Shown: piece after piece, positions 19,678-64,000 of the stretch | Position numbering within the stretch: the stretch's first letter is position 1 | Layout: every line of letters begins with the position of its first letter | From: Schaalia vaccimaxillae DSM 15804 | GTDB lineage: Bacteria > Actinomycetota > Actinomycetes > Actinomycetales > Actinomycetaceae | Direction: 5' to 3' | DNA length: 64,000 nucleotides | NCBI RefSeq assembly: GCF_000420425.1 | Contig: NZ_ATUX01000005.1 | Coordinates: 1 to 64,000, forward strand | Notes under the pieces: model-generated | What the model saw: the letters and a program-made list of their open reading frames with translations, nothing else | Databases searched by the model: none | Told to the model about the DNA's origin: nothing | Made by a program: the position numbers and the translations under genes

Positions 19678-19735
19678 GGACGCACAAAAGTCTCGCGAGG
19701 GACGCCCGTAACTTTCCCGAGGGACGCACAAACGT
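19678..19735. repeat. 22-nt module array, locus 1
   Basis: Three units in minus-type orientation with GGACGC at 19678, 19700 and 19722, exactly 22 nt apart, between converging genes. First and third are GGACGCAC variants. Confidence 0.85.
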
Positions 19736-19764
19736 CCTCTCAACTGCTGCCCGTTGCTTTGTCT

Positions 19765-20193
19765 CTACTGAGAGGTGGACTGTTCAGCCTCCCGCGCCGA
19801 ACGCTTTTGATGCGAGTGGGCTTCGACCTCGTCGCAACTGAGCGTCCCCTGCGTAGTTCCGGAAGTGCCGTCGCTGCGAACCCGTGCGATCTTGAGTGAG
19901 TATTTGGCGCCAAATCTGGCGATATGAATTCCGGCCACATACTCCAACTTGTCGACGAAGTTGGTTGTAGTCGTCAGATGAAGAACGAGGGCATCGTCCT
20001 CGCAAGAAATGAGAAATTGCCCGATGCTTGGGCCTTCTTGATTGAAATCCATTGTGTCTGTCAACGATTCTGCGTCCCACGTTGCACTGATTTTGTGGCC
20101 CATATGGCTGTTGAGCTGGCGACCTTAACGTTCAGGCGGGGAAGTTTTCACGCGAGCGACGGATGTAACTGCTGCAACTGTAGGCGAGGTCAT
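19765..20193 (-). pseudogene. DUF2218 protein broken by an in-frame stop
   Basis: An ATG at 20193 follows GGAG by 6 nt and opens MTSPTVAAVTSVARVKTSPPER, then a TAA at 20125-20127, then the same frame goes on as GRQLNSHMGHKISATWDAESL to 19765. The joined protein (about 142 codons) has the DUF2218 pattern, in which PERYLRQL..H..HK is conserved. The stop therefore sits where the family has Tyr, and TAC/TAT to TAA is a single change. The rest of the frame (FLISCEDDALVLHL, AGIHIARFG) is intact, so the loss is recent or read through. A shorter product from the ATG at 20103 would lack the first strand. Confidence 0.7.
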
Positions 20194-20272
20194 AAGGATC
20201 TCCTTACCTAAGTTTGAGCATCTCATATCTTGGGCTGGCATCCGGGAGATCTACTGTCGACCGGCTGTACAT

Positions 20273-20338
20273 GGGCGTCCCTCGGCAAACTTATGTGCGT
20301 CCCTCGCGGAAGTTTTGGGCGTCCCTCGCGGGGAAGGC
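20273..20338. repeat. 22-nt module array, locus 2
   Basis: Three plus-type units with GGGCGTCC or GTGCGTCC at 20273, 20295 and 20317, period 22. Lies between the DUF2218 pseudogene and the CycA-like permease, in a 262-bp divergent gap. Confidence 0.85.
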
Positions 20339-20455
20339 GACAAGGAGGGGTGACGGGCTAGGAAGAAGGGAGATTGGGCGGCTGGCGGGTGCAGGAGTAG
20401 CGTTTACCCGTCTTACGGCGCAAGCCGGACGAGGCATATCAGAAGGGGACCGCCG

Positions 20456-21910
20456 ATGAATCCGAAGGAACAGCACAGCGCGAGGACGCAACCGCAAAGC
20501 ATCGTCCTCGCTGCAGCGGAGGAAGGACCACATCTGCAGCGAACCCTGAAAAACCGCCACGTCCAACTCATCGCAATCGGCGGCGCCATCGGCACAGGCC
20601 TATTCATGGGCTCAGGCAAAACAATCTCAGTCGCCGGTCCCTCGGTCCTCCTCGTCTACATCATCATCGGTGCTGTGCTCTTCCTCTTCATGCGAGCGAT
20701 GGGCGAACTCCTCCTCTCCGACCACCGATACTCAACCTTCGCCGACATTGCCCGCGACCTCATCGGGCCGTGGGCGGGATTTGTCACCGGATGGACCTAC
20801 TGGATGTGCTGGGTCGTCACCGGCGTCGCCGACATGGTTGCTATCACCGGTTATGTGCGTTTTTGGTGGCCGGCCACGCCAGCATGGATCCCCATCGTCA
20901 TCACGACAGCGCTGCTCTTTGCCCTCAACGCAATGACCGTCAAAGCCTTCGGAGAAACCGAATTCTGGTTCGCCCTGATCAAAATCGTCGCCATTTTGGC
21001 CCTAGTTGTCGTCGGCTTTGCCATGGTGACCATCGGCGTAACAGGAGAAAGCGGCACACCCGCAGCCATATCGAACCTGTGGGCTCACGGCGGATTCTTC
21101 CCCACGGGTTTCGACGGATTCCTCGGCGGCTTCCAGATCGCTCTCTTCGCTTTTGTCGGCATCGAACTGGTAGGCACCACGGTCGCCGAAACAGCCGACC
21201 CTGAAACCACCTTGCCAAAAGCCGTTAATTCCATTCCGATCCGCATCATGCTGTTCTATGTCGCAGCCTTGGCGGCCATCATGATGGTCACACCATGGGA
21301 CGAGGTCGACCCCAACGCCTCCCCCTTCGTCACTATGTTCTCCATGACGGGACTGGGCGCGGCGGCCACCATCGTCAATCTGGTGGTCCTCACGTCGGCA
21401 GCGTCCTCGGCAAATTCGGGGATCTACTCGACCTCGCGCATGCTCTACTCACTTGCCGGACGAGGCGACGCGCCCCAGATTTTCAACCGGCTATCCAAGC
21501 GCCACGTACCCCGCAACGCCCTTTTCCTGTCCTGCGTCTTCTTGCTGTCCGGCATCGTCATTATCGGAACGGGCGGCTCAATTTCTGAAGCCTTTACGCT
21601 GGTCACGTCCATGTCTGCAACCCTCTTCATGGGCGTGTGGGTGGTCATTGTCGTTGCCTACCTGATCTTTGTCCGCCGACGTCCTCACCTGCACGCGGCC
21701 TCGTCTTTCAAGGCACCGGGTGGCCAAGTGAGCGCCTGGGTGGTGCTGGTGTTCATGGTGGCCATGGTGGCGGTGTTGGCATCGAGGCCGGACACCCGCG
21801 TCGGCTTGGTGGCTTCGCTCGTGTGGATTCTGTTCATCGTGGGGGCCGCGTTGGTGACGCGCCATCGGATGCTGCGTCGGGCGCAGGAGTCAGCTTCGGT
21901 GGATGAATGA
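20456..21910 (+). CDS. amino acid permease, D-serine/D-alanine/glycine transporter-like
   Basis: 484 aa, twelve membrane helices, APC superfamily, amino-acid-transporter family. The N-terminal HLQRTLKNRHVQLIAIGGAIGTGLFMGSG is the family signature; the MGELLL and GPWAGFVTGWTYWMCWV segments fit CycA. The start ATG at 20456 has AAGGGG upstream. Probable proton symporter of small neutral amino acids; CycA is the closest in pattern but other AAT-family substrates cannot be excluded. Confidence 0.9.
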   Translation: MNPKEQHSARTQPQSIVLAAAEEGPHLQRTLKNRHVQLIAIGGAIGTGLFMGSGKTISVAGPSVLLVYIIIGAVLFLFMRAMGELLLSDHRYSTFADIARDLIGPWAGFVTGWTYWMCWVVTGVADMVAITGYVRFWWPATPAWIPIVITTALLFALNAMTVKAFGETEFWFALIKIVAILALVVVGFAMVTIGVTGESGTPAAISNLWAHGGFFPTGFDGFLGGFQIALFAFVGIELVGTTVAETADPETTLPKAVNSIPIRIMLFYVAALAAIMMVTPWDEVDPNASPFVTMFSMTGLGAAATIVNLVVLTSAASSANSGIYSTSRMLYSLAGRGDAPQIFNRLSKRHVPRNALFLSCVFLLSGIVIIGTGGSISEAFTLVTSMSATLFMGVWVVIVVAYLIFVRRRPHLHAASSFKAPGGQVSAWVVLVFMVAMVAVLASRPDTRVGLVASLVWILFIVGAALVTRHRMLRRAQESASVDE

Positions 21911-22090
21911 CGGTGCCTGAGGAAAGGGCCTGCTCAAGGTAACCGCCGCCGGTGCCCGCCACCGATACCTACAGAAGATGCGTCTGCCTGAGCGGCGGCC
22001 TGGAATTTTAACGCTCCCAGACCGGGTGATCGGCCTCGTGCACCTACGTCCATTCGCCGTAGTACTCTTCTTCGGCTACTCTCTTGCCCA
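21911..22090. other. gene-free stretch ahead of the TPP riboswitch
   Basis: No gene seen. It should hold the promoter for the riboswitch-controlled operon; no clear -35/-10 pair can be given. Confidence 0.4.
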
Positions 22091-22184
22091 GTGCCACGGG
22101 AACCCGGAGAGACCGGGTTGAGAGGGAGGCTGCCCAGCCTTCGACCGTAGAACCTGAACCGGATCATGCCGGCGTAGGAAGGCT
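22091..22184 (+). promoter_or_regulatory. TPP riboswitch (THI element)
   Basis: Matches the conserved parts of the thiamine-pyrophosphate aptamer: CCGGGTTGAGAGGGAGGC (22113-22130) with its partner GCCT, and the strongly conserved CTGAACCGGATCATGCC then GGCGTAGGAAGG (22154-22182). The 3' GGC can close the outer stem with the GCC near 22094. It lies 45 bp before the ykoE-like gene, so TPP should shut down this operon, probably by hiding the ribosome site because no T-rich terminator follows. Confidence 0.93.
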
Positions 22185-22229
22185 CTTCACTCGTGCGCAC
22201 CGTGCTGCAACGAGAGGAGAAGCTTCAGC

Positions 22230-22868
22230 ATGGTCAGCAACACCACCCCCACTTCACCCACCTCGCCCTCGGGCACACCCGCACCCAAGCTCGGCTGGCG
22301 CGTCGTCGACATGGTGACCGCCGCAATCCTGGGCGTCGCCTGCGGCATGATTTTCCTGGTGTGGAACCAGATCGGCGGACTTGGTACCGACGTCCTGGAC
22401 GCCGTAACGCCTGGTTTGGGTGGCCTCGCTTTGGGCATTTGGCTGCTCGGAGGCACCCTGGGGGGCCTGATTATCCGCAAGCCTGGCGCTGCGATCCTCG
22501 TCGAGGTCATTGCTGCATCCGTGTCCGCCGCACTGGGGTCACAGTGGGGCATCGGAACCCTGTATTCGGGAATTGCTCAGGGCTTGGGCGTCGAAATCAT
22601 CCTCGCTATTTTCCTGTACCGCCGCTACAACGTGATCGTTGCGCTGCTTTCTGGTGCAGGAGCCGGTGTTGCCGCTTGGGTCCTGGAACTGTTCATGTAC
22701 GGCAACATTGAAAAGGGCTCGGCCTTCCTGATCATCTACTTCATTGGCTGCGTTATTTCCGGTGCGATCCTGGGCGGCATGGTTGCTTGGCTGTTGGTCA
22801 AAGCGCTGGCGAAGACGGGTGCGTTGGATCGTTTCGCCGCTGGACGCGAGGCGCGCACGCGTGTCTGA
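22230..22868 (+). CDS. ykoE: YkoE-like ECF transporter S component (thiamine precursor)
   Basis: 212 aa with about six membrane helices (MVTAAILGVACGMIFLVWNQIG, GLALGIWLLGGTLGGLIIRKPGAAILVEVIAA, etc.). The RKPGAA..VE..AA segment and the order S component - double ATPase - EcfT match the YkoEDC group, which imports hydroxymethylpyrimidine or thiamine. The TPP riboswitch directly upstream supports that substrate. GGAG precedes the ATG. Its end overlaps the next gene's GTG by 8 nt. Confidence 0.9.
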   Translation: MVSNTTPTSPTSPSGTPAPKLGWRVVDMVTAAILGVACGMIFLVWNQIGGLGTDVLDAVTPGLGGLALGIWLLGGTLGGLIIRKPGAAILVEVIAASVSAALGSQWGIGTLYSGIAQGLGVEIILAIFLYRRYNVIVALLSGAGAGVAAWVLELFMYGNIEKGSAFLIIYFIGCVISGAILGGMVAWLLVKALAKTGALDRFAAGREARTRV

Positions 22869-25338
22869 ATCAAATCCCGATACCAGCGCGGGCTTACCAA
22901 TGGGCGCCCGAGTCGACATCTCTGGGTGGGGTTGGCGCCACGGCGGGCGTAAAGCCTGGACCTTAGACGGTGTGGATCTGGCCATCGCCCCAGGTGAGCG
23001 TGTGCTGGTATTGGGGCCCTCGGGGTCGGGCAAGTCGACCCTCATGGCTGGTTTAGCTGGCCTGCTTGGTGGCGAGGACGAGGGTGAGGCCCGCGGTTCC
23101 TTGACCGTTGACGGTGCCGATCCGACCCTCATGCGCGGGCGAATCGGCCTGGTTATGCAAGACCCGGAAGCCCAGGTTGTGCTGGCCCGCTGCGGTGACG
23201 ACGTGGCTTTCGGCATGGAAAACCTGCGTGTGCCGCGTGAAGAAATTTGGCCTCGCGTCAGGGCATCTATTGACGAGGTCGGCCTCGACGTTGCGCTCGA
23301 CCGTTCCACTTCGGCTCTGTCGGGTGGGCAAAAACAGAGGCTTGCCCTCGCGTCGGTTATGACAATGCAACCGGGACTGCTGCTGTTGGACGAGCCCACC
23401 GCAAACCTTGATCCGGCTGGCGTGGTGGGAGTGCGTGACGCGGTCGAGCGTGTTTTGGCTGACTCGCAGGCGACGCTGGTAGTCATTGAGCACCGGGTGG
23501 ATGTGTGGAAGGACCTGGTTGACCGGGTTGTGGTGGTCCTCGATGGACGGATTGCCGCCGATGGGCCTGTTGAGTTGGTGCTGGCCGAGCAGGGCCAGGT
23601 GTTGCGTGAGCGCGGCATTTGGTTGCCCGGTGACGATGTCGCGGCCGAAGCCCTGGCAACGAATCACGAAGGGCAGCAACAACCTTCGGAGTTCTTGGCA
23701 GATGACCCGATCATGACTCTTCGAGGCCTGTCGATTGGGTATTCTCCGCTGCACCCGGTTCGCAGTGACATCAACTTGGATATTCCCAGGGGAGTGTCAA
23801 CCTGCATCGTCGGTGCCAACGGTTTAGGAAAGTCGACGCTGGCGTTGACGATTGCGGGCCTGCTGGAGTCTTTGGCCGGCACCGTAGCGATGCACCCGAG
23901 TACCGCGGCGGACACTTCACCGACTTCTACGCTGGCGGGCGCGCCCTCGTCACAAGATCCCCACGACTGGAAATCCGCGGAACTACTGGGCCGCATTTCG
24001 ATGGTGTTCCAAGAGCCTGAATATCAGTTTGTGGCGCGAACCGTGCGTGAAGAACTTGAGGTTGGGCCGCGCAAGGCTGGTATCGACGGCGACCAACTGG
24101 CTGCTCTGGTGGATGAACACCTGTCGGCTTTGGGTTTGTTGGCCCTTGCGGGTGCGAACCCCATGACGCTGTCCGGTGGTGAGAAGCGGCGTCTGTCTGT
24201 GGCGACGGCGCTTATTAGCGCCCCCGAGTTGTTGATTTTGGATGAGCCAACCTTTGGCCAGGATCGGCGCACCTGGTTGGAGTTAGTGCGTTTGCTGAGG
24301 CGGGCCCGTCAGTCTGGCACGACCCTGGTGTCAATCACCCACGACCCGGCTTTCGTCGCGGCCATGGGCGATAACGTCATCGACTTTGCCGATTACGGCA
24401 CGGCGGTAGGGGCGGGTGTGGCCGGTGAGCCGAGCAACTCCGGCACCCCCCAAAAACCTGCCACCCCCACACCTCCCGCGAAGGACGCCCAAAACCCCCG
24501 CGAAGGACGCCCAAAACTTCCGCGAAGGACGCCCAAAACTTTCGCGAGGGACGCCCAAACGGCGGCAACCACCCGTAAGCGGCGCAGCCTCCTCGACCTC
24601 GTCAATCCTGTGACCCAGGTGCTCGCGCTGATGATCATAACGACGCCCCTGCTCATCACTATCGACGCAGTGTCAGCTGGAACCGCCCTCGCCCTGGAGA
24701 TGATTCTCCTAGTCGTATCGCGAATCCCCCTGAAAAAATTCGCACTGCGCATGATTCCGCTGTTCATCGCGGCCCCGCTTGCGGCGCTGTCGATGCTGCT
24801 GTACGCGAACCCGGGCGGCGATATCCACTGGCAATTTGGCCCGGCCATCATCTCCGACCGCTCGATGCTATTGGCCATGGGGATCCTCGTGCGTGTGCTC
24901 GCGGTGGGAACGCCAGCGATTGTCTTGCTGTCGCGCATTGATCCGACGGATATGGGCGACGGGATGGCCCAAGTGCTCCGCCTTCCGGCGCGCCCGGTCC
25001 TGGCCACGCTGGCCGCTGCCCGCATGACCGGACTCATGGCCGCTGATTGGAAGGCCTTGGAGCAGGCCCGCCGAATCCGCGGCATTGGAGACGCGCATAA
25101 AATCATTTCCGCCGTGCGAGGATCCTTTTCACTCCTGGTGTTTGCGCTTCGACGTTCGGCAAAACTATCGCTGACCATGGAAGCGCGGGGTTTTGGAGCG
25201 GCCAAAGAGCGGACGTGGGCGCGTGAGTCCCGCGTCGGAGTGGCCGACGCAGTCATGCTGGCGATTGCCGTCGCCATTCCCGCGATTGCTCTGACGGCTG
25301 CGATTGTTACCGGCAATTTCGAACTCATCGGCAGGTGA
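22861..25338 (+). CDS. fused ECF ATPase-ATPase-EcfT (YkoD-YkoC-like)
   Basis: 825 aa from the GTG at 22861, which overlaps the ykoE stop (the frame is open from 22744, but the extra N terminus is shadow). Residues 15-260: first ABC ATPase (Walker A GPSGSGKST, Q-loop VMQDPEAQ, signature LSGGQKQR, Walker B LLLLDEPT). Residues 285-535: second ATPase (GANGLGKST, VFQEPEYQ, LSGGEKRR, LLILDEPT). Residues 545-567 are encoded by a 22-nt module array. Residues 575-825: EcfT-type membrane domain with TKLSLTMEARGFGA-like RSAKLSLTMEARGFGAAKER (ARG coupling helix). YkoD and YkoC are separate proteins in Bacillus; the fusion point falls at the repeat. Confidence 0.92.
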   Translation: MSESNPDTSAGLPMGARVDISGWGWRHGGRKAWTLDGVDLAIAPGERVLVLGPSGSGKSTLMAGLAGLLGGEDEGEARGSLTVDGADPTLMRGRIGLVMQDPEAQVVLARCGDDVAFGMENLRVPREEIWPRVRASIDEVGLDVALDRSTSALSGGQKQRLALASVMTMQPGLLLLDEPTANLDPAGVVGVRDAVERVLADSQATLVVIEHRVDVWKDLVDRVVVVLDGRIAADGPVELVLAEQGQVLRERGIWLPGDDVAAEALATNHEGQQQPSEFLADDPIMTLRGLSIGYSPLHPVRSDINLDIPRGVSTCIVGANGLGKSTLALTIAGLLESLAGTVAMHPSTAADTSPTSTLAGAPSSQDPHDWKSAELLGRISMVFQEPEYQFVARTVREELEVGPRKAGIDGDQLAALVDEHLSALGLLALAGANPMTLSGGEKRRLSVATALISAPELLILDEPTFGQDRRTWLELVRLLRRARQSGTTLVSITHDPAFVAAMGDNVIDFADYGTAVGAGVAGEPSNSGTPQKPATPTPPAKDAQNPREGRPKLPRRTPKTFARDAQTAATTRKRRSLLDLVNPVTQVLALMIITTPLLITIDAVSAGTALALEMILLVVSRIPLKKFALRMIPLFIAAPLAALSMLLYANPGGDIHWQFGPAIISDRSMLLAMGILVRVLAVGTPAIVLLSRIDPTDMGDGMAQVLRLPARPVLATLAAARMTGLMAADWKALEQARRIRGIGDAHKIISAVRGSFSLLVFALRRSAKLSLTMEARGFGAAKERTWARESRVGVADAVMLAIAVAIPAIALTAAIVTGNFELIGR
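24483..24562. repeat. 22-nt module array inside the ECF fusion gene, locus 3
   Basis: Minus-type units with GGACGCCC at 24483, 24505, 24527 and 24549, exact 22-nt period. It is read in frame as the linker between the second ATPase and EcfT (DAQNPREGRPKLPRRTP). Since 22 is not a multiple of three, each unit is read in a different phase, with no stop. Confidence 0.9.
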
Positions 25339-26998: not shown

Positions 26999-27056
26999 GT
27001 GCGTCCCTCGAGAAAAACATGTGCGTCCCTCGAGGGACTTTTGGGCGTCCTTCGCG
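26999..27056. repeat. 22-nt module array, locus 4
   Basis: Plus-type units at 26999, 27021 and 27043, period 22; the last is GGGCGTCCTTCG. Lies between a methyltransferase gene and a convergent oxidoreductase, ending next to the oxidoreductase stop. Confidence 0.85.
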
Positions 27057-27057
27057 G

Positions 27058-28146
27058 TTACTTTTCCCAGGGGTAGACGAGGCCGATCTCGGCGCGCATC
27101 TGATCCATGAGATCCATAACCTTCAACGTGTCGTCCAGCGGCATTGTGTCCGACTCGGTCTTGCCAGCGGCCAAGCAGCGAGCCACCTCGGCCGCCTGAT
27201 ACTGGAAACCACCGGGAACCGTTGCATCCCAATCAGTCAGGGTGCCGTTGTCTCCCGCACGCCCCTCGCCGAAGCTGCGCAGGCGCAGGCCGGATGCGCG
27301 GTAGAACTGCTCGGGCAATTCGATGACGCCCTTTTGGAACACGACTTCGCCGTAGGTGGCGGATTTGCCGTTAAAGTTCGAGGTCGCAGTGGCGACAGCG
27401 CCATCACTCTTCAGTAGCGCCGCCGAAGCAATATCGACGCCCAGCTTAGTCATCTTCGCTGTGGAGGCGACAAGCTCAACGTCGGGGAGGAGCTGCTGGA
27501 CGAAGGACATGGAGTAGACGCCCAAATCCAGCAGTGCGCCGCCGCCAAGCTCAGGATCCCAGGTGCGCTGGATGTGTTCGAGAGCCTGACCGTGGTCGGC
27601 GTGGATGGTCACAATGTCGCCGAGCAGCCCATTGCGTGCAATTTGGGTGAGGACCTTCTGGTGGGGAAGGTGACGGGTCCACATGGCTTCCATGCAGAAC
27701 ACGCCCTTTGCTCGGGCCGCTTCGACGATGCGTCGCGCAGCAGCGGCGTCAACGGTGAAAGGCTTTTCGACGAGGACGTGCTTGCCTGCGTTGATGGCTA
27801 ACAGGGCGGCGTCCTCGTGCTTGGGGTGAACGGTGGCGATGTAGACGGCGTCAATGTTGGGATCGGCAACAAGATCTTCGTACGAGTCAAAAGCCCGAGC
27901 AACGCCGAAATCTTCAGCGAACTTCTGTGCGCGCTGCGGAACCCGAGCGGCAACGCCAGCCATAATTCCAGAGGAATAGGCGGCGACGTCCTGTGCGAAC
28001 ACGGAACCGATCCAACCGGCTCCAATGATGCCCCAGCGGATGGGGGGAGCATCCATGGGGTCGAGTAGTTCAACGCCTTCGGCGAGGCGGGCGATTTCTT
28101 CGGGCAGGGGCGCAAGCGCCGCGTGGGGATTCGACGTCGATGTCAT
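27058..28146 (-). CDS. Gfo/Idh/MocA family oxidoreductase
   Basis: 362 aa. NAD(P)-binding Rossmann fold: IRWGIIGAGWIGSVFAQDV (about 36-54), VYIATVHPKHEDAALLAINAGKHVLVEKPF, the last being the EKP signature, then a C-terminal domain with GGALLDLGVY. The ORF continues upstream to 28227 only through a 22-nt module; the natural start is ATG 28146 (MTSTSNPHAAL). Probably oxidises or reduces a sugar or inositol-type ring; substrate unknown. Confidence 0.92.
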   Translation of the reverse strand: MTSTSNPHAALAPLPEEIARLAEGVELLDPMDAPPIRWGIIGAGWIGSVFAQDVAAYSSGIMAGVAARVPQRAQKFAEDFGVARAFDSYEDLVADPNIDAVYIATVHPKHEDAALLAINAGKHVLVEKPFTVDAAAARRIVEAARAKGVFCMEAMWTRHLPHQKVLTQIARNGLLGDIVTIHADHGQALEHIQRTWDPELGGGALLDLGVYSMSFVQQLLPDVELVASTAKMTKLGVDIASAALLKSDGAVATATSNFNGKSATYGEVVFQKGVIELPEQFYRASGLRLRSFGEGRAGDNGTLTDWDATVPGGFQYQAAEVARCLAAGKTESDTMPLDDTLKVMDLMDQMRAEIGLVYPWEK

Positions 28147-28190: not shown

Positions 28191-28308
28191 GCGAGGGACG
28201 CCCAAAAGTCTGCCGAGGGACGCCCAAAACTTCCGCGAGGGACGCCCATCTTTGCTGGCTATTTCAACTTGTGCGTCCCTCGCGAGTAACTTGTGCGTCC
28301 CTCGTGGA
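28191..28308. repeat. 22-nt module array, inverted halves, locus 5
   Basis: Three minus-type units (GGACGC at 28196, 28218, 28240) followed, after a 28-nt gap, by two plus-type GTGCGTCCCTCG units (28271, 28293), each with 22-nt spacing. The two orientations face each other and could pair as a long hairpin. In the gap between divergent genes. Confidence 0.85.
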
Positions 28309-30109: not shown

Positions 30110-30147
30110 GGGCGTCCTTCGGCAAACTTATGGGCGTCCTTCGGGGA
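30110..30147. repeat. 22-nt module array, locus 6
   Basis: Two plus-type units at 30110 and 30132 (GGGCGTCCTTCG form), period 22, between converging genes. Confidence 0.85.
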
Positions 30148-38711: not shown

Positions 38712-38750
38712 GCCGAGGGACGCCCAAAACTTCCGCGAGGGACGCCCAAA
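38712..38750. repeat. 22-nt module array, locus 7
   Basis: Two minus-type units with GGACGCCC at 38718 and 38740, period 22, just upstream of the lipid-kinase start and near the cdr-type promoter. Confidence 0.85.
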
Positions 38751-43566: not shown

Positions 43567-43959
43567 TTACTGCTGACCTAGCGAACGCTCGGCGGAATTA
43601 TGAAAGCGCCTTCGGCGAGCGGCAATGGACCATGACTCCTTCGCAGGCCTGACAGCTCCCGGCATCGTCACTGATTCTTCGGAGTCTCGATAGGAGGTGC
43701 GCATGACAAGACAGCCTTCGATGTCTACAGGTTCTCGATCATGTCCGAGAGATGCTACAGAGAAGTGTTGCTCCGACCGTTCCGACCAGATCAATAAGGC
43801 GCGACCGTCGCCGATGTACGTACGCACCAGCTCCCAAACTTGTTCTCGTACTCGCTTGGACAGGTGGCCGACAAAAACCCCGGGGGAAACCTCCAGCAGC
43901 CACCGTGTCATCGAACCACGTAAGGATGCTGGTGCTGCTGACAGAACCAGGACTACCAA
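43567..43959 (-). CDS. cas2: CRISPR-associated endonuclease Cas2 (type I-E)
   Basis: 130 aa from a TTG at 43959 that overlaps the last codons of cas1; GAGGAGG lies about 8 nt before it. Marks of Cas2e: VVLVLSAAPASLRGSMTRWLLEVSPGVFVGHLSKRVREQVW. It is about 30 residues longer than the E. coli protein, with a basic tail (RRRRFHNSAERSLG). Forms the integrase complex with Cas1. Confidence 0.93.
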   Translation of the reverse strand: MVVLVLSAAPASLRGSMTRWLLEVSPGVFVGHLSKRVREQVWELVRTYIGDGRALLIWSERSEQHFSVASLGHDREPVDIEGCLVMRTSYRDSEESVTMPGAVRPAKESWSIAARRRRFHNSAERSLGQQ

Positions 43960-44888: not shown

Positions 44889-44890
44889 CG

Positions 44891-47414: not shown

Positions 47415-47420
47415 AACGGT

Positions 47421-56114: not shown

Positions 56115-56174
56115 ACGAGGGACGCACAAAAGTTCGCCGAGGGACGCACATCTTTCCCGCGAAGGATGCCCAAG
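56115..56174. repeat. 22-nt module array, locus 8
   Basis: Minus-type units with GGACGCAC at 56120 and 56142 and GGATGCCC at 56164, period 22, between the converging HAD and NAD-binding genes. Confidence 0.85.
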
Positions 56175-57065: not shown

Positions 57066-57104
57066 GGGCGTCCCTCGCCGGACTTTTGGGCGTCCCTCGC
57101 GGCG
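57066..57104. repeat. 22-nt module array, locus 9
   Basis: Two plus-type GGGCGTCCCTCG units at 57066 and 57088, period 22, in the divergent gap upstream of the FGGY kinase. Confidence 0.85.
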
Positions 57105-57254: not shown

Positions 57255-58850
57255 ATGACCACTACAGACATCCGGGCAGCGATCGAATCCGGAGACACAG
57301 CACTAGGAATTGAGTTCGGCTCAACCCGAATCAAAGCCGTACTTATTGGCCCGGACCATCAGCCCATCGCATCCGGAGGTTTCTCCTGGGAAAACAAGCT
57401 CGTTGACGGCCTATGGTCATACGACCTCGAGGACGTGCGAAAAGGGTTACAAACCGCCTACGCCGACCTCGTTGAAGATGTCCGCACCAAATACGACGTC
57501 ACCCCCACCACCTACGGCTCCCTCGGCATCTCAGCCATGATGCACGGCTACCTCGCCTTCGACGCCGCCGGAAACCAGCTCGTCCCCTTCCGCACCTGGC
57601 GCAACACCAACACCGGGCCCGCCGCCGAAGAACTCATCAAAACCTTCGACTTCAACATCCCGCTGCGCTGGTCCATTGCCCACCTGCACCAGTGCATCAT
57701 CGACAACGACCCGCACGTCGTCAACCTCGCGTCCATCAACACGCTGGCTGGCTGGGTCCACGAAGAACTGACCGGCCGCCATGTCCTGGGAATCGGCGAT
57801 GCCTCCGGCATGTTCCCCATCGACTCCACCGCCCTCGACTATGACCAAGCGCGAGTCGACGCGTACGACGCCCTCGTCGCAGACCGCGGGTACTCATGGA
57901 AACTGCGCGACCTACTGCCCCAGGTCCTGCCCGCAGGCGCCGACGCCGGCACACTGACTGCCGAGGGCGCCGCCCTCCTCGACCCCACGGGCACCCTGCG
58001 CCCCGGGATTGCGATGTGCCCGCCCGAGGGTGACGCCGGCACTGGCATGGTGGCCACCAACTCCGTTGCGCAGCGTTCAGGCAATATTTCTTGTGGCACT
58101 TCCGTGTTCCTCATGGTGGTGCTTGAGAAGGCCCTCGAGCGGCTGCACACTGAAATCGACATGGTCACCACGCCCGATGGCTCGCCCGTTGCCATGGTGC
58201 ACTCCAACAATGGCGCGTCTGAGATCGATGCCTGGGTGTCAATGTTCGTTGAGTTCGCCAAGCTTGCCGGCATCGACATGTCCGTCCCGCAGATTTATGA
58301 CGCCCTGTACTTCAACGCAATGAAGGGCGCAGCTGACGGTGCGGGCCTGTTGGCGTACAACACTTTGAGTGGCGAACCGTTGATGGGGCTCGAGGGCGGC
58401 CGCCCGCTTTTCATGCACACCCCTGATGCTGACTTCACCCTGGCCAATGCATTCCGCGTGCAGCTCATGAGCATCTTCGCGTCAATCCGAATCGGGATGG
58501 ACATTCTTGCCGACGAGGACGTGGCCCTGGATCGGCTCTTCGGTCATGGTGGCCTGTTCAAGACTGAGGGTGTCGCGCAGAAGGTCCTGGCCGATGCCCT
58601 CGACATTCCGGTTTCTGTTGGTGCGACCGCCGGTGAGGGCGGGGCCTGGGGTATTGCGGTCCTCGCACGTTTTGCGGTGTGCGGGAACGAGGGTGAGACG
58701 CTGCCGCAGTACCTGGATTCTCGTGTGTTTGCTGACGCTGAGGCGAGCGTGGTTGAACCGGATGCTGGCGATCACGAGGGTTACAACCGTTTCCTTGAGC
58801 GGTACCGTCGCGCATTGCCGACTGTGCAGTCGGCTGCTGATAACAGCTGA
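57255..58850 (+). CDS. FGGY-family carbohydrate kinase
   Basis: 531 aa, ASKHA fold. N-terminal ALGIEFGSTRIKAVLIGPDHQPIASGG is the ATP phosphate-binding strand; GISAMMHGYLAFD, SINTLAGWVHEELTGRHVLGIGDASGMFPID and the C-terminal GHGGLFKTEGVAQKVLADAL, AGEGGAWGIAVLA match the FGGY group, probably a pentulose/hexulose kinase (xylulose- or ribulose-like). GGAGG lies 7 nt before the ATG. Standing alone behind a repressor-type palindrome, it is likely sugar-induced. The exact sugar is unresolved. Confidence 0.9.
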   Translation: MTTTDIRAAIESGDTALGIEFGSTRIKAVLIGPDHQPIASGGFSWENKLVDGLWSYDLEDVRKGLQTAYADLVEDVRTKYDVTPTTYGSLGISAMMHGYLAFDAAGNQLVPFRTWRNTNTGPAAEELIKTFDFNIPLRWSIAHLHQCIIDNDPHVVNLASINTLAGWVHEELTGRHVLGIGDASGMFPIDSTALDYDQARVDAYDALVADRGYSWKLRDLLPQVLPAGADAGTLTAEGAALLDPTGTLRPGIAMCPPEGDAGTGMVATNSVAQRSGNISCGTSVFLMVVLEKALERLHTEIDMVTTPDGSPVAMVHSNNGASEIDAWVSMFVEFAKLAGIDMSVPQIYDALYFNAMKGAADGAGLLAYNTLSGEPLMGLEGGRPLFMHTPDADFTLANAFRVQLMSIFASIRIGMDILADEDVALDRLFGHGGLFKTEGVAQKVLADALDIPVSVGATAGEGGAWGIAVLARFAVCGNEGETLPQYLDSRVFADAEASVVEPDAGDHEGYNRFLERYRRALPTVQSAADNS

Positions 58851-58878
58851 TTGGTTGACCCCTCGAAGGATGTGCGTT

Positions 58879-58962
58879 GTGCGTCCTTCGAGGGGTGACT
58901 TGTGCGTCCTTCGTGGGAAAGATGGGCGTCCTTCGGGAGAGTTTTGGGCGTCCTTCGCGGGA
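58879..58962. repeat. 22-nt module array, locus 10
   Basis: Four plus-type units with GTGCGTTG/GTGCGTCC at 58879 and 58902 (23 nt apart, the only departure seen) and GGGCGTCC at 58924 and 58946. A minus-type TCGAAGGA fragment precedes them. In the gap between the FGGY kinase and DUF5926 genes. Confidence 0.8.
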
Positions 58963-58993
58963 TGTGGGTGTTGGGGGCTGTACGATGGCGCCC

Positions 58994-59875: not shown

Positions 59876-59961
59876 GCGCAGGTGACTGTGCCGAGGACGA
59901 CCCAGGTTGCCCTCGGTGCAGTGCGTTTTCACCGCGCTTAATTCCCCTAATAGTGATCGCG

Positions 59962-60035
59962 GCTTCTTAACAGCGCTTCCTGGTCTAGGCCGTGCGCGAT
60001 GGTCTCGGCCATACGCGCTGCTTCTTAACAGCGCT
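59962..60035. repeat. 16-nt direct repeat with related inner repeats
   Basis: GCTTCTTAACAGCGCT occurs at 59962-59977 and 60020-60035, with GGTCTAGGCCGTGCGCGA and GGTCTCGGCCATACGCGC between. No gene in this 177-bp piece. Confidence 0.6.
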
Positions 60036-60052
60036 CGCTCAGTGGAGTCCCC

Positions 60053-60565
60053 TTAGTTATCGGAAGGGACAACATCCGCGATCAAGCCAGTGCTCGGCCA
60101 TGTTTCCAAAGTGAAGCGCTCCTCGGCCTCGTCGCATGATTGCATGATCCGAAGGCCGAAGCCTTCTTCCCAAAAATCTGGACCCTGTGCCCGTTGGATC
60201 TCCACACGGCGCGCGCCGTCAGGTGTCGTGTACTCCATGCGGGTGCCGCCAGCGCTATAGCGACTCTTGAATGGTTGACGAGCGAGCTCATTGCAGAGCG
60301 CATCATGGGTGATCGTCGTGCCTGAAACAGCATCAGAACCCACCTTCAACAGGTGGAAACCTGACAGGCAAACCAAGCCGACCTGAACCACCATCACCAA
60401 ATACACCACCGGTCTGATCCAGCTCGTCACAAACTGGTGGTGATCCCGATTTGACTGACCGATAACCTGGTCAAGGCGAGGCCGAGAGAACCACCACTGC
60501 GCCAACGGCAACATTAACGTGGCGACAACCAGCGGGAGACACCAGCGCAGCGCATATGAAGCCAA
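60053..60565 (-). CDS. small membrane protein with unsettled start
   Basis: 170 aa as drawn (TTG start 60565, MASYALRW). Helices at about 5-25 and 50-72 then an extracytoplasmic domain with DALCNELARQPFKSRYSAGGTRMEYTTPDG. The same frame is open with good membrane-protein sequence (KRTYIALFALFVAICVVV, another helix) up to a TGA near 60711, but has no ATG/GTG/TTG there, and an ATG at 60710 is one base out of phase. A 1-nt indel near the start, or a start not recognised here, is likely. Function unknown. Confidence 0.6.
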   Translation of the reverse strand: MASYALRWCLPLVVATLMLPLAQWWFSRPRLDQVIGQSNRDHHQFVTSWIRPVVYLVMVVQVGLVCLSGFHLLKVGSDAVSGTTITHDALCNELARQPFKSRYSAGGTRMEYTTPDGARRVEIQRAQGPDFWEEGFGLRIMQSCDEAEERFTLETWPSTGLIADVVPSDN

Positions 60566-60821
60566 CAGCAGCCCACCGTGGTGCCAGCGAACATCGGCTG
60601 CGACAACTACGCAGATGGCAACGAAAAGCGCGAATAAAGCGATGTAAGTGCGCTTGACAAAACTTTTCGGCCTCGCGGATTTTTGGGAGCTGAATCGAGC
60701 ATGAGTTCATACGTTCCTGACAAACATTATCCTGGCCAAAACCCTAGTGGCTTTGATGACCACACTGACTCTGAGATGGACATTCCCGCGTAATTGGAAG
60801 CGTAGGAATAGAATCGTTGAC

Positions 60822-61649
60822 GTGAGAACCGCAGGCATTGGAGCCGACAACCAGAAATCACCCCAACGCGTCGCCGCCATCATGCCCGCGTACAACGTGG
60901 AACGCGATGTCGCCTCCACCGTGCGAGCCTGCCGAGCCATCCCCGGCGTTGACCTCCTCATCGTCGTAGACGATGGGTCCGAGGACGAAACGGGACGCGC
61001 GGCGCGGGCTGCAGGCGCCGTCGTAGTCCGCCATTCTCTGCATCGAGGGCGAGCCTCGGCCATTGAAACCGGGGTGAAAGTTGCTGCCATGCGTGACCGC
61101 GTTGACGCTCCCGCCAGGCACCTGCTGTTCATCTCGCCTGACCTGGGCGAATCCGCGGTGGAAGCGACCGCCCTCGTCGAAGCTGTTACCACCGGCCTAG
61201 CAGACTGTGCATGTTCAGTACCACCCCTGGACCCAGCTGAATACCGTGGGCACGCCCAAAATGTTGCGCGCGCAGCGATCCGGCGAATCACCGGGTGGAA
61301 CCCGACCTATCCACTGTCATCCCAGCGTTGTATCACGCGGGAAGCGGTTACTGCGGCCATGCCTTTCTTAAGTGGCTACGGCCTGGAGGTTGCGATGACT
61401 ATGGACATCCTGGTCGCGGGTCTGTCCATGATTGAGATTCCCTGCAACTTCGTCCACTCTGGCGCTGATCAATTTATCGGCCGGCATAACCGTTCGGCTC
61501 GCTTCACCGAAGCATCTTTGGCGTCGGCTCGCATGATTTTGCACCGTAAGCGGATGCCGTTCAAAGATCGTCTTCAAGGGCTCAAGATCCAGGGGATCGG
61601 CGAACCGTATCCTCGGGCGGCTTTCGAGCGCGAGACTAGCGAAAACTAA
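60822..61649 (+). CDS. glycosyltransferase family 2-like protein
   Basis: 275 aa from GTG 60822. GT-A fold: VAAIMPAYNVERDVASTVRACRAIPGVDLLIVVDDGSEDETGRAARAAGAVVVRH, with the D-D-G nucleotide-binding motif, then HRGRASAIETGVK. The usual DxD acceptor motif is weak (SPDLGES takes its place). Ends in a basic helix (RKRMPFKDRLQG). Sugar donor unknown. Start uncertain because the ribosome site is weak; divergent from the membrane-protein gene. Confidence 0.78.
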   Translation: MRTAGIGADNQKSPQRVAAIMPAYNVERDVASTVRACRAIPGVDLLIVVDDGSEDETGRAARAAGAVVVRHSLHRGRASAIETGVKVAAMRDRVDAPARHLLFISPDLGESAVEATALVEAVTTGLADCACSVPPLDPAEYRGHAQNVARAAIRRITGWNPTYPLSSQRCITREAVTAAMPFLSGYGLEVAMTMDILVAGLSMIEIPCNFVHSGADQFIGRHNRSARFTEASLASARMILHRKRMPFKDRLQGLKIQGIGEPYPRAAFERETSEN

Positions 61650-61723
61650 GGCAGGAATTCGGGGAAACCGAGGGTTGACGCGGTGTTGCCCTCGTCGGTG
61701 GTCCGGCTCCTAGTACATCGCCC

Positions 61724-64000
61724 TTACTTTGCCCCGCGGAGACGCAGCGAATTCGTCACGACGAACACCGACGAGCACGCCATCGCCAGAGCCGACAGCA
61801 TCGGGTTGAGCAAGCCAGTGATGGCTAGTGGCACCATGATGACGTTGTAGAAGAACGCCCAGAAGAGGTTCTGCTTGATGACGCGCAGGGTTCGCCGTGA
61901 CACTCGGATTGCAGTAGCTGCGGTGGTGAGCTCGGAGTTCACCAGCGTGATATCAGAAACTTCAATCGCAATGTCCGTGCCTGAGCCCATGGCTATGCCC
62001 AGTCCGTTGGTGCTGGCTTGAGCTAGTGCTGCTGCGTCATTGACACCATCGCCGACCATGGCGACGGTGCGGCCCTCATCTTGTAAAGACTTGATGACGT
62101 CGCGTTTGTCCGAGGGCATGACCTGTGCGATGACGCGGTCGATGCCGACTTGGTTGGCGACGTGGCGGGCGGCGTCCTCGTTGTCCCCGGTGAGAAGGAC
62201 GGGTTCGATACCGAGGTTTCGTAGCTGCTCGATTGCTGGTTTGGAAGAGTCTTTGACGGTGTCGCGGACAACCAGTACCGCTACAACCTTCGCGATAGTA
62301 ACCTCCGCCGTAGCAACGTCCGCGAGGGACGCCCAAAACGCTGGCGAGGGACGCCCAAAAGTTCCGCGAGGGACGCCCAAAAGTTTGCCGAGGGACGCCC
62401 ATCTTTCCCCCGAGGGACGCCCATCTTCGACCACAAGAGCATCTGAGTCTGCGGAGACGACAGCTTCAGGAGTGCGGCGATCCACAACCGTCCCCTCATA
62501 CCCCGCGTTGCGGACAACCTGCTCCAATTCCTCATCCGTGTGGGGCTGCGTCAACGTGATCGTCGCCGACTCCGTTGCAAGATTGGCTGCCGCCGTTACG
62601 CCAGGAAGTTTGCGAAGCTTGCGCTCCACGCGCCCCACGCAAGACGCGCAGGTCATGCCTTGAACATCCATCGAGATGACCGCAAGTGGGTGCGCGAGGT
62701 CACTGGCCGCTGTCCCACCATCGCCATTTGGGCGTCCCTCGCCAGAGTTTTGGGCGTCCCTCGCGAGTTCGGGCGTGTCATGCGAGGACGCGCTCTGCGT
62801 CGTGTCACCGTGCGTCGTGCCTCCCGCATCTTCGGACGCGGACGAGGACGAGCCAGCATCAACGTCCCAATTCGGCACCACTGCAGCGATAACTGCTGAT
62901 GCGCCCGTCTGTTCAGCCGCCGACGCGGCCTCCAAAGAAGCTACAGGAATCTGGACTCCCAATTCAGACAACCACGATGCTCGGCCTACCAAGACAAGGT
63001 CAGTTCCGCCGTCCTCGCCCGCAACCAGCCCGGAAACACCCAAGCTCGCATGATTCGTAAAACTCTCAACGGGCGGCAACAACACGGACCTGGCTTGAGC
63101 ACCGGCGAAAATTGCGCGAGCAACCGGATGTTCTGATGCCGCCTCGACTGCTGCGGCTAGTGCGAGGGCGTCGTCCTCGTCAATGGGCGTCCCTCGAGAG
63201 AAAGATGGGCGTCCCTCGGCAAACTTTTGGGCGTCCCTCGCGAGGGAAGACGGGACGATCACCGACTCCAGCGACATTTTGCCCGTCGTCACAGTGCCGG
63301 TCTTATCCAGAACCATCGTGTCGATTGTCCGAGTCTGCTCCAAAATCTCAGCGGACTTAATGACAATGCCCAACTGCGAAGCCCGACCCGACCCCACCAA
63401 CAAAGCCGTGGGCGTCGCCAAACCCAAAGCACACGGGCACGCCACCACCAAAACGGCCACCGCAGCCGTAAACGCAGCCTGCACCGAGCCGCCCGTAACC
63501 AGCCACCCCACCAAAGTCAGGATCGCCACGACAATGACAACCGGCACAAACACCGCAGAAATACGGTCCGCCAAACGCTGGACCGGAGCTTTCCCGGCCT
63601 GCGCCTCCGTGACCATCCGGCCAATTTGAGCCAAAGTCGTCTCAGACCCCACGCGGGTCGCACGAACTGTCAAGGCACCCCACGTATTCACGGTTGCTCC
63701 AGTGACCTCATCGCCCGCCGCGACATCAACGGGTACAGACTCACCGGTCAGAAGAGACGTATCGAGGGCGGAATTGCCTTCCTCAATGCGCCCGTCGGTG
63801 GCGACCTTTTCGCCTGGGCGCACCACAAACAGGTCGCCAACTTTCAACGACGAGGCCGCAACCCGCTTTTCCTGACGTTCACCCGTTACCGGGTCTGCCA
63901 CCACCAAAGTTGCTTCTTTTGCTCCCAATTCGAGAAGCGAACGTAAAGCATCGCCGGCGCGGTACTTAACGCGGGCCTCCATCCACCTGCCGATGAGTAG
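61724..64000 (-). CDS. copper-type P1B ATPase, partial at right edge
   Basis: Heavy-metal translocating ATPase; about 760 codons in the window, the N-terminal part lies beyond 64000. A domain TGES, VACPCALGLATPTALLVGSGRA (CPC metal site), DKTGTVTTGK (phosphorylated Asp), AASEHPVARA (HP loop) and VGDGVNDAAALAQA all present. Two peculiarities: a complete HMA metal-binding domain, MDVQGMTCASCVGRVERKLRK, sits inside the N-domain region (about residue 440 counted from the ATG at 63982) rather than at the N terminus, and three arrays of 22-nt modules are in frame near residues 246-266, 405-417 and 519-553. Metal probably Cu(I) from CPC and CxxC. Confidence 0.92.
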   Translation of the reverse strand, partial: LLIGRWMEARVKYRAGDALRSLLELGAKEATLVVADPVTGERQEKRVAASSLKVGDLFVVRPGEKVATDGRIEEGNSALDTSLLTGESVPVDVAAGDEVTGATVNTWGALTVRATRVGSETTLAQIGRMVTEAQAGKAPVQRLADRISAVFVPVVIVVAILTLVGWLVTGGSVQAAFTAAVAVLVVACPCALGLATPTALLVGSGRASQLGIVIKSAEILEQTRTIDTMVLDKTGTVTTGKMSLESVIVPSSLARDAQKFAEGRPSFSRGTPIDEDDALALAAAVEAASEHPVARAIFAGAQARSVLLPPVESFTNHASLGVSGLVAGEDGGTDLVLVGRASWLSELGVQIPVASLEAASAAEQTGASAVIAAVVPNWDVDAGSSSSASEDAGGTTHGDTTQSASSHDTPELARDAQNSGEGRPNGDGGTAASDLAHPLAVISMDVQGMTCASCVGRVERKLRKLPGVTAAANLATESATITLTQPHTDEELEQVVRNAGYEGTVVDRRTPEAVVSADSDALVVEDGRPSGERWASLGKLLGVPRGTFGRPSPAFWASLADVATAEVTIAKVVAVLVVRDTVKDSSKPAIEQLRNLGIEPVLLTGDNEDAARHVANQVGIDRVIAQVMPSDKRDVIKSLQDEGRTVAMVGDGVNDAAALAQASTNGLGIAMGSGTDIAIEVSDITLVNSELTTAATAIRVSRRTLRVIKQNLFWAFFYNVIMVPLAITGLLNPMLSALAMACSSVFVVTNSLRLRGAK
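62323..62427. repeat. 22-nt module array inside the P1B ATPase, locus 11
   Basis: Five minus-type units with GGACGCCC at 62327, 62349, 62371, 62393 and 62415, exact period 22. Translated in the gene as DGRPSGERWASLGKLLGVPR and further, between the HMA domain and the second half of the P domain. Confidence 0.9.
62730..62766. repeat. 22-nt module array inside the P1B ATPase, locus 12
   Basis: Two plus-type units at 62730 and 62752, opposite to locus 11. Read in the gene as LARDAQNSGEGRPNG, ahead of the HMA domain. Confidence 0.9.
63185..63246. repeat. 22-nt module array inside the P1B ATPase, locus 13
   Basis: Three plus-type units at 63185, 63207 and 63229, exact period 22. Read as LARDAQKFAEGRPSFSRGTP, just after the DKTGT motif region. 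Confidence 0.9.

Follow-up and report, generated by a model that had tools for sequence, protein, structure and literature searches.

The window analysed here is a stretch of 64,000 nucleotides from Schaalia vaccimaxillae DSM 15804 (contig NZ_ATUX01000005.1; the source genome, hereafter G000), in which short phased arrays of a 22-nt repeat lie between and within genes. A search for GGGCGTCCCTCG allowing at most one mismatch returned 37 matches in the window, against an expectation of 0.71 derived from 100 dinucleotide shuffles, none of which exceeded 4. The degenerate core GKGCGTCCYTCG gives 40 exact cores which, together with a one-mismatch unit at 56160, make up 41 units in 14 arrays of 2–5 units each. 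A previous sequence-only reading of the window had listed 13 loci; all were recovered, and the locus at 28191 consists of two back-to-back arrays, hence the count of 14. As that reading had stated, the step between cores is 22 nt throughout the window save for one of 23 nt (58879 to 58902), and two spellings are mixed: among 108 units from the 42 G000 arrays in hand for array-level measures, core position 2 is G in 80, T in 27 and A in 1. Position 9 of the core is a second two-way position in the same units (C 79, T 29).

Between convergent genes, arrays often sit close to stop codons. The 3' end of the three-unit array at 26999..27054 (+) lies 3 nt short of an oxidoreductase stop codon (gene 27058-28146, −), that of the two-unit array at 30110..30143 (+) lies 7 nt short of the stop codon of 30151-32751 (−), and the three units at 56116..56171 (−), the 5'-most of which carries one mismatch, turn the side with a purine tract towards the stop at 56077. 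Similarly, the purine-tract side (19654-19673) of the three-unit array at 19674..19729 (−) points towards the stop of a + strand gene ending at 19636. Four units at 58879..58957 (+; first step 23 nt, the rest 22) separate an FGGY kinase gene, which ends at 58850, from a DUF5926 gene, which starts at 58985. Divergent gaps hold a head-to-head (5'-5') pair, with 28192..28247 (−, three units) as the left arm and 28271..28304 (+, two units) as the right arm across a gap of 23 nt; the two units at 38714..38747 (−), between the start of a diacylglycerol-kinase-like gene (37427-38680, −) and the gene at 38882-40591 (+); and the two units at 57066..57099 (+), which precede the FGGY kinase gene (57255-58850). 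Lastly, three units at 20273..20328 (+) lie upstream of an amino-acid permease gene (20456-21910).

Independent gene calls place 4 of the 14 window arrays inside genes, in agreement with the sequence-only reading. Three fall in a P-type ATPase ORF (61724-63982): 62323..62422 (−, five units), in frame at amino acids 521-554, and two that are antisense to the gene and likewise in frame, 62730..62763 (+, two units; amino acids 407-418) and 63185..63240 (+, three units; amino acids 248-266). At the place matching the last of these, a related genome (G146) has an array with a different core in equal orientation. The fourth, 24479..24556 (−, four units), falls within the linker that joins the ABC ATPase and CbiQ parts of a fused ECF-transporter ORF (22900-25338), and corresponds to amino acids 579-605 of a longer version of the ORF starting at 22744. 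The suggestion that the arrays are stop-free in all six frames, so that they can enter coding DNA, stands only in part. It is true of the consensus tandem, of 9 of the 14 window arrays and of 30 of the 42 G000 arrays, against a background of 51 among 420 length-matched random stretches, but it fails for the class as a whole: no array is open in six frames among 25 in G146, 27 in G151 and 14 in G027, which excludes stop-free design as a general rule. These three dialects hold in-frame stops, yet 6 of the 25 G146 arrays lie inside predicted genes (4 of 42 in G000 and 11 of 163 across six genomes).

Each unit joins a constant core to a variable spacer. In the 108 G000 units, 10 of the 12 core positions are at most 2% non-consensus, a figure that is inflated because the arrays were gathered via core matches; the 70 internal spacers comprise 42 distinct sequences with up to 47% non-consensus per position. 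Array edges in G000 are sharp, the adjoining in-register 12-mers having 8.17 and 8.45 mismatches versus 8.28 for random sequence, and apart from the purine tract no conserved flanking sequence was found there. Lone cores are rare: in 240 kb (the window plus array-centred loci), 106 of 107 exact cores are in arrays. Among the first 100 listed of 248 cores in the genome, 7 lack an exact partner; 2 of these have a one-mismatch partner and 5 have no partner seen, 4 of them uninspected for imperfect partners, while the reversed-pattern control gives 3 cores genome-wide. DNA uptake sequences are abundant isolated copies, and we rejected this identity because such copies are lacking here (1 of 107 in 240 kb). 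Folding of the 42 G000 arrays shows no excess over shuffles (mean z −0.14 on the array strand and −0.42 on the other), which excludes an RNA-structure element for G000. G151 arrays also fold little, and in G027 (−2.06, −1.38) and G146 (−0.74, −1.70) array folding somewhat exceeds that of shuffles. In-register modified leader units, present in G146, G151 and partly G027, were left out of the array counts for G146 and G151; G146 additionally has composite tandem modules.

A genome-wide search, which the sequence-only reading had proposed, found 141 exact phased pairs in G000 and none with the reversed pattern. The window contains 25 of these pairs (18% in 2.7% of the genome), and the pairs occur on many contigs, each time in differing flanking sequence. 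This spread excludes an assembly artefact or ordinary coding sequence, to which we assign a negligible probability: 4 of the 14 window arrays do lie within reading frames, but 38 of the 42 G000 arrays fall outside predicted genes and other genomes hold array families of their own. The G000 phased-pair pattern was absent from the 212 other genomes of the family, and a scan of genome contigs with the array pattern gave only four single matches in unrelated organisms, which we take as chance. Four patterns searched in viral contigs gave 0, 0, 0 and one match (L109), a repeat overlapping a phage gene that was judged to be chance, and carriage by phage or prophage was rejected. A plasmid search with the FGGY-DUF5926 region returned only two partial matches and was uninformative.

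The G000 arrays belong to a wider class, of which they represent a single dialect: relatives share the layout and use other cores. Arrays with a period of 21-23 nt and other cores were found in G146 and G151 (overlapping dialects), G170, G157 and G156, and in G027, which belongs to another genus; with G000 this makes five dialects in seven genomes, with 2-6 copies per array and a unit period that is 22 nt in G000 and 23 nt in G157 and G156. Phased pairs number 76 in G170 (at most three mismatches), 393 in G157 and 189 in G156 (at most two mismatches), and reversed controls were 0 in these as in G146, G151 and G027. Several G156 stretches are cut at an array, which makes their unit numbers minimum values and hides the outer flanks. 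In the sister species G156 and G157, place and orientation are kept in 5 of 6 syntenic locus pairs, and the intergene beyond one such place-conserved array is near the shuffled level (0.55 versus 0.50). Core bases are identical at 68 of 70 positions between these two genomes, but the count carries little weight because it is restricted to intact cores, at most two substitutions away from the core in either genome, in the best of three registers, and leaves out the two-way position, where 6 of 7 agree. Between G000 and G151 (42 and 27 arrays), about seven loci have orthologous array neighbours and three of them equal geometry. The FGGY-DUF5926 intergene holds different repeat types in several species, and G172, the nearest relative by its FGGY gene, carries a private REPIN-like palindrome.

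One flank of the arrays is a purine-rich tract of about 20 nt in the six genomes measured. The purine fraction of the 3' flank is 0.76, 0.77, 0.69 and 0.64 in G000, G151, G146 and G027, compared with 0.50, 0.49, 0.49 and 0.50 for the 5' flank; in G157 and G170, where the tract is on the opposite strand to the search core, it is 0.71 versus 0.55 and 0.74 versus 0.48. Four G156 arrays (L233), two of them inside predicted genes, show no tract on the expected side (0.64 versus 0.68) and were left out of the pooled placement counts. Using a simple purpose-written gene caller on loci chosen around arrays, we found that, of the gene ends at most 60 nt away from the 163 arrays of six genomes, 103 are stop ends and 26 are start ends, two G157 arrays that duplicate others (L215 and L218) being counted. 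Stops within 60 nt lie on the tract side in 78 cases and on the other side in 25 (P = 1.6 × 10−7, pooled), with 21 start codons on the tract side; this polarity is pronounced in G157 (19 versus 1) and weak in G000 (17 versus 12). Judged by eye, a replichore polarity is suggestive in G027 and absent in G151.

Between the stop and the array, a C/T-rich tract is present in G157, G170, G000 and G151 (P ≤ 0.002); the excess is not significant in G146 (P = 0.2) and G027 (P = 0.3). In a test window that the array itself partly fills, hairpins are weaker at array-bearing than at array-free gene ends in G157 (P = 0.0003), G027 (0.0005), G170 (0.035) and G151 (0.049), with no difference in G000 (0.30) and G146 (0.65); for convergent ends only, P values are 0.29 (G000), 0.019 (G151), 0.17 (G146) and 0.052 (G027). 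Beyond the array, going by medians only, array-bearing ends have weaker hairpins than array-free ones in five genomes, and in G146 they have stronger ones. Intrinsic terminators were rejected on these grounds, hairpins at array-bearing ends being no stronger than elsewhere and G000 arrays having no excess folding.

Several known systems share part of this anatomy. The ends of Mu and Tn7 carry repeated in-phase 22-bp sites bound by one transposase, which resembles in-phase units of about 22 bp bound by a putative protein; unlike those ends, the arrays mostly stand alone with no element body, and no transposase was found among 28 proteins scanned with Pfam. Rho-dependent termination sites are C-rich, G-poor RNA just past a stop codon, which the C/T-rich tract of four genomes would resemble once transcribed, but to our knowledge they do not carry phased sequence-specific repeats or species dialects, as the arrays do. 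REP and REPIN elements, in the parts of their descriptions drawn on here, are often species-specific, abundant, mostly downstream of genes and sometimes inside them, all of which holds for the arrays as well; REPs are palindromic, with the GTAG type tied to RAYT (PMC3733652; PMC3116915), whereas the arrays are direct repeats in a genus whose examined genomes gave no RAYT. The RAYT family (PF01797), the one family covered in a check for a co-occurring transposase that the sequence-only reading had called for, occurs in 5 of 213 family genomes and is absent from G000, 34 genomes of the same genus and G027. Together with the direct repeats and the lack of excess folding in G000, this excludes a RAYT/REP system for the genus.

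BrickBuilt, a minisatellite MITE of Porphyromonas gingivalis, is, as far as the portions cited here describe it, a 23-nt tandem unit without separate spacers at many loci (19 in one strain), always intergenic and known from strains of one species, with 1 to about 23 imperfect copies that have conserved and variable parts, and a long leader and tail with inverted-repeat ends (PMC4596501). The arrays are like it in unit length, lack of separate spacers, scatter over many loci, imperfect copies, placement near genes and in being known from one species. They differ in that G000 arrays are sharp-ended and leaderless, with 2-5 units and a purine tract on one side, arrays also occur in genes and relatives share the layout with other cores; a leader or tail with inverted-repeat ends was not found at G000 arrays. 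A survey of prokaryotic satellites covered tandem repeats of 10-200 nt, some dispersed, and in the part cited here notes that non-coding satellites only rarely transpose (Leptospira interrogans and Methanocella conradii); it would miss arrays of two or three units because at least four repeats were required (PMC6749651). BrickBuilt, the REP elements and the satellites of this survey were the nearest systems to emerge from topic searches of the literature. Papers containing the motif strings were unrelated, judged by title and the start of the abstract.

We narrowly favor, at a probability of roughly 0.37, a reading of the arrays as gene-end cassettes bound by a putative lineage-specific protein and limiting read-through. 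Such a cassette would comprise 2-6 copies of a site of about 22 bp in phase, plus the tract of about 20 nt that is purine-rich on the array strand, often ordered along transcription as stop codon, tract (C/T-rich on the other strand) and array. Two or more phased sites would be occupied by adjacent molecules of a putative DNA-binding protein with lineage-specific specificity, which would block RNA polymerase just past the gene end; release of the polymerase may be aided, via Rho or pausing, by the C/U-rich stretch of RNA that separates the stop codon from the array. Arrays upstream of starts or in genes would be copies that are merely tolerated or that act locally in some other way. The observed support comprises the anatomy, the placement and polarity bias in six genomes, the low core variation and sharp ends in G000, the dialects and the mostly shared G156/G157 positions; from it we infer the protein, the block, the role of Rho and a joint change of sites and reader. 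Weaker hairpins at array-bearing ends in four genomes speak for this reading as well. Against it stand the lack of a hairpin difference in G000 and G146, the weak polarity in G000, the arrays inside genes, the start codons on tract sides, the four tractless G156 arrays, the non-significant C/T excess in G146 and G027, the folding of G027 and G146 arrays and the small number of loci shared between G000 and G151. The sequence-only reading had already proposed protein-bound arrays from the period. Phasing, a constant core beside a variable spacer, few lone cores, sharp ends, no folding excess in G000 and a period of 21-23 nt in relatives agree with it, but binding is still something we infer because no binding protein was found: array neighbours, whose shared members are housekeeping genes, transporters and S4-domain proteins, include no convincing reader among the 28 proteins scanned.

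A near-equal rival sees the arrays as inert, selfish miniature elements of minisatellite type, akin to REPIN or BrickBuilt, which an enzyme recognising the core copies and each lineage amplifies, with gene-end copies tolerated because they do least harm there. Their limitation to one or few species, the different repeat types in the FGGY-DUF5926 intergene and the private palindrome of G172 all favor it, as do the element-like leader units and composite modules of G146 and the finding that, among ten oppositely oriented pairs less than 400 bp apart in 108 arrays, nine are head-to-head and one tail-to-tail. It fits poorly with the stop-side polarity, the positions kept between G156 and G157, the missing RAYT in the genus, and intact cores with variable spacers and no decayed units adjoining G000 arrays, although core-based collection biases the last point.

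Improbable in our view is that a global regulator, or a chromosome-organising protein, binds the arrays without any role in termination, and that they lie at gene ends where they are tolerated. Phasing near two helical turns (21-23 bp), low core variation, an apparent need for at least two sites and arrays upstream of starts and in genes would suit it, but it predicts neither purine tract nor stop-side polarity, and the sites of a regulator are not expected to differ so strongly among congeneric species. Still less probable is an RNA-level 3'-UTR element, a transcribed C/U tract and repeats bound linearly by Rho or another RNA-binding protein; a transcript that would be C/U-rich past the stop in four of the six genomes and the little folding in G000 and G151 speak for it, but it leaves unexplained the strict near-helical phasing, the copies in opposite orientation and the head-to-head pairs in divergent gaps. 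An extended form of the gene-end cassette reading, which we think rather unlikely but more plausible than these last two, is a lineage-private address code: arrays in a species' own dialect would mark scores of gene boundaries at which a fast-diversifying putative reader terminates or insulates, code and reader being replaced together.

The arrays may thus represent a fast-changing, so far unrecognised signal at gene boundaries, or else selfish repeats of a new kind. If they are boundary signals, they would form a cis-acting code that is mostly kept in place between two sister species while its wording differs in more distant congeners, turnover of a sort normally associated with selfish elements or genetic conflict, and they might contribute to keeping adjacent genes apart where strong end hairpins are lacking. 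Should they be selfish, they would represent a class of direct-repeat element copied by a putative mobilising enzyme. Either way, the dialects and their genomes provide material for comparative searches for the reader or the mobiliser.

The window holds 14 arrays built on a 22-nt unit with the core GKGCGTCCYTCG. Matches to GGGCGTCCCTCG at no more than one mismatch number 37 against 0.71 expected, which bears out the array family proposed in a sequence-only reading, and a degenerate version of the core finds 40 exact copies and one unit with a single mismatch. The step between units is 22 nt throughout apart from a 23 at 58879, as that reading had stated, and its count of four arrays in genes also holds: 4 of the 14 lie in ORFs, three of them in one P-type ATPase ORF with in-frame Pfam domains on either side and one in a fused ECF-transporter ORF, where it separates the ATPase part from the CbiQ part.

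Several other features were recorded here. In the P-type ATPase ORF (61724-63982), a heavy-metal-associated domain spans aa 438-496, flanked by the E1-E2 part and a hydrolase stretch further on, and the DNA there is partly conserved in the relatives G172, G146 and G167. In these three genomes the gap from the DUF5926 gene to the glycosyltransferase gene is <200 nt, compared with ~1 kb in the window (59876-60860). A TPP riboswitch (RF00059, 59.5 bits) at 22086-22197 lies upstream of an ORF at 22230-22868 and of the fused ECF ATPase-CbiQ ORF, suggesting that this transporter may be thiamine-related. At 43055-43510 there is a CRISPR-like array with a 61-nt period, which is probably type I-E to judge by its repeat, with long ORFs adjoining (about 43953-52704).

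A scan of the source assembly (G000; 2.34 Mb, 13 contigs) yielded 68 forward and 73 reverse exact phased pairs (141 in all), against none in the whole genome for a reversed control pattern. The window is a hot spot, with 25 of the 141 in its 64 kb. Units seldom stand alone: across 240 kb (the window plus array-centred loci), 106 of the 107 exact cores fell within arrays. The genome contains 248 exact cores (reversed control, 3); among the first 100 listed, 7 lacked an exact partner within 46 nt, 2 of them having a one-mismatch partner (imperfect partners were checked in 3 of the 7). Over 108 units, six core positions are invariant, four vary in ≤2% and two are two-way, while the 70 internal spacers comprise 42 different sequences. 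The in-register 12-mers immediately flanking the arrays show 8.17 and 8.45 mismatches versus 8.28 at random places, and the array ends are therefore sharp.

The search was extended to related Actinomycetaceae, where the G000 wording was absent from all 212 other family genomes, which include 34 same-genus ones, and differently worded arrays were found through comparison of orthologous loci. A motif-free tandem-lag search covered samples of ~104-120 kb from eight same-genus genomes. The relaxed frame GKGNNNNYYTCG-N10 had matches in 55 of 213 genomes, only four of which contained repeated families (G000, 148; G151, 53; G146, 43; G027, from another genus, 26; others, 0-4), with reversed controls of 0, 4, 5 and 0, respectively; a tighter pattern gave 51, 39 and 23 matches in G151, G146 and G027 and none in controls. 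The array wordings, or dialects, of G146 and G151 overlap in GTGATGCTYTCG, and G151 additionally uses GTGATGAYCTCG. G170 has GAGATTCGTCCGTC-N7 with period 21 (76 pairs at ≤3 mismatches), which occurs in none of 34 other genomes of the genus, and the sister species G157 and G156 have in common GARGTCCGCTC-NNTTC-N7 with period 23 (393 and 189 pairs, respectively, at ≤2 mismatches); G173 has 4 such pairs and the remaining 32 genomes have none. In total, this non-exhaustive search saw five dialects in seven genomes of two genera. Related units occur just 5' of arrays in G146, G151 and partly G027. Relative to shuffles, RNA folding of the arrays was somewhat raised in G146 (mean z -0.74, -1.70) and G027 (-2.06, -1.38), with little or no excess in G000 (-0.14, -0.42) and G151 (-0.77, -0.77).

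Three further observations were made alongside these families. Array-adjoining modules of ~72, 94 and 138 bp, tandem or dispersed, occur in G146 (L044, L139, L140, L141, L147, L148); one set of two phased pairs appears at G151:C1 8674 and again at 2608952, near both contig ends, which probably reflects terminal redundancy of the assembly; and phage contig L109 has an iteron-like direct repeat of 22-23 nt (10935-11003) that overlaps a gene and the core of which happens to match GTGATGATTTCG.

The families resemble one another in layout: with the pyrimidine tract first, a C/T-rich tract is followed by CGC or similar and then by units starting with GAR every 21-23 nt. Units start with GAGGGACGCCC in G000, GARAGCATCAC in G146, also GAGGTCATCAC in G151, GAARTAACCAC in G027, GAGATTCGTCCGTC in G170 and GARGTCCGCTC in G157. 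By inspection we read this as a grammar that the families may share, a likeness of layout that does not imply common descent. On the array strand, the purine share of the 20-nt tract flank versus the opposite flank is 0.76 versus 0.50 in G000, 0.77 versus 0.49 in G151, 0.69 versus 0.49 in G146, 0.64 versus 0.50 in G027, 0.74 versus 0.48 in G170 and 0.71 versus 0.55 in G157; four G156 arrays had no purine tract (0.64 versus 0.68). By gene context, tract purine is 0.79 (other), 0.76 (stop), 0.72 (start) and 0.64 (inside genes) in G000, 0.59, 0.74, 0.77 and 0.68 in the same order in G146, 0.76-0.80 in G151 and 0.63-0.64 in G027. Because of this content across contexts, the tract seems to belong to the cassette of phased units plus tract, at least in G000 and G151. 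Among 21 genomes compared by eye at the end of the FGGY gene, a C-rich tract stands out in G151 and G170, the two in which an array faces the stop, and none was seen in the others. After tract-side stops, the best 15-nt pyrimidine content is higher than at array-free ends in G157 (P = 6e-6), G170 (0.002), G000 (2e-5) and G151 (8e-6), with no significant excess in G146 (0.2) or G027 (0.3).

Placement was assessed for 163 arrays from six genomes, 11 of them within genes. Stop codons within 60 nt lie on the tract side in 78 cases versus 25 on the other side (P = 1.6e-7), and start codons in 21 versus 5 (P = 0.002); at 150 nt the counts are 86 versus 44 (P = 3e-4) and 35 versus 22 (P = 0.11). Per genome, the 60-nt stops are 19 versus 1 (G157), 17 versus 5 (G151), 11 versus 3 (G027), 6 versus 0 (G146), 8 versus 4 (G170) and 17 versus 12 (G000). 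Ten array pairs in opposite orientation lie ≤400 bp apart (four genomes), and nine of these are head-to-head and face outward. Local hairpins are weaker at array-bearing than at array-free ends in G157 (P = 0.0003), G027 (0.0005), G170 (0.035) and G151 (0.049), with no such difference in G000 (0.30) or G146 (0.65). A control beyond the array gave a mixed picture by medians: compared with array-free ends, G157 and G170 had weaker hairpins there, G000, G151 and G027 slightly weaker ones and G146 stronger ones.

G000 and G151 (42 and 27 arrays compared) have different cores. The genes flanking arrays are orthologous at about seven loci, and only three of these, including the end of dnaE, have identical geometry. 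The P-type ATPase array at 63185 has a differently worded counterpart in G146 at the matching place and orientation. For G156 and G157, which use one dialect (35 and 31 arrays compared), BLAST connected eight pairs of loci, of which two weak ones (68-69% identity) were set aside. Place and orientation are kept in five of the remaining six (L246 and L249 by order and coordinates), the five excluding L248, which contains a duplication; one G156 array in L249 is without a G157 counterpart. Three pairs have interior arrays; there, among units that are both ≤2 substitutions from the core, taken in the best of three registers, 68 of 70 core positions agree when the two-way position (6 of 7) is left out, as do 50 of 84 spacer positions. 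Identity of the intergene past one array is near the shuffled level (0.55 versus 0.50). Arrays therefore mostly persist in place within that one dialect. Separately, L215 and L218 contain G157 arrays in duplicate, the copies including at least the adjacent DNA and lying ~3.0 and 1.6 kb from each other.

The nearest described element found was BrickBuilt of Porphyromonas gingivalis (PMC4596501). REP elements (PMC3733652) are like the arrays in gene-end placement and unlike them in being palindromic; the REP-linked RAYT was not found in G000 or same-genus genomes. A prokaryotic satellite survey set a minimum of four repeats (PMC6749651). Searches of the open-access literature with the motif strings returned only papers unrelated by title and opening of the abstract, so a description may exist elsewhere in print. 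A MITE-like element with inverted ends around AAATGTCGCAYGYAATT was seen by eye in the FGGY-DUF5926 intergene of G163, G169, G165 and G162 (L012, L016, L018, L022).

Strict phasing, the need for at least two units, cores that vary little beside freely varying spacers, the sharp array ends and persistence in place lead us to favour arrays as sites that a protein would bind and that selection would keep. Stop-side polarity together with the C/U-rich tract suggests that they may act in ending or insulating transcription. The best overall explanation, to which we give a probability of about 0.37, is that the arrays are gene-end cassettes bound by a putative lineage-specific protein through a proposed mechanism. 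It is tempered by the core comparison of G156 and G157, which counted only units with intact cores. Weighed nearly equal to it is a selfish element of minisatellite type, consistent with dialects confined to single or sister species and with the different repeats that occupy one intergene, FGGY-DUF5926. REPIN-like elements in G172 point the same way: this nearest relative by the FGGY gene yielded no such array family, one 19-nt tandem pair apart, and has a private palindrome (TTTCCCCCGAAAACGAACATTTCC plus inverse; L174-L193, L035) with 40 matches at ≤1 mismatch, none in 34 other genomes of the genus; no RAYT was found in its genome. A further alternative, sites of a global regulator or chromosome-organising protein with no part in termination, we consider distinctly improbable. 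A bolder and rather unlikely proposal is that the arrays form a lineage-private address code for gene ends, at which a fast-diversifying DNA-binding reader would terminate or insulate transcription, code and reader being replaced together.
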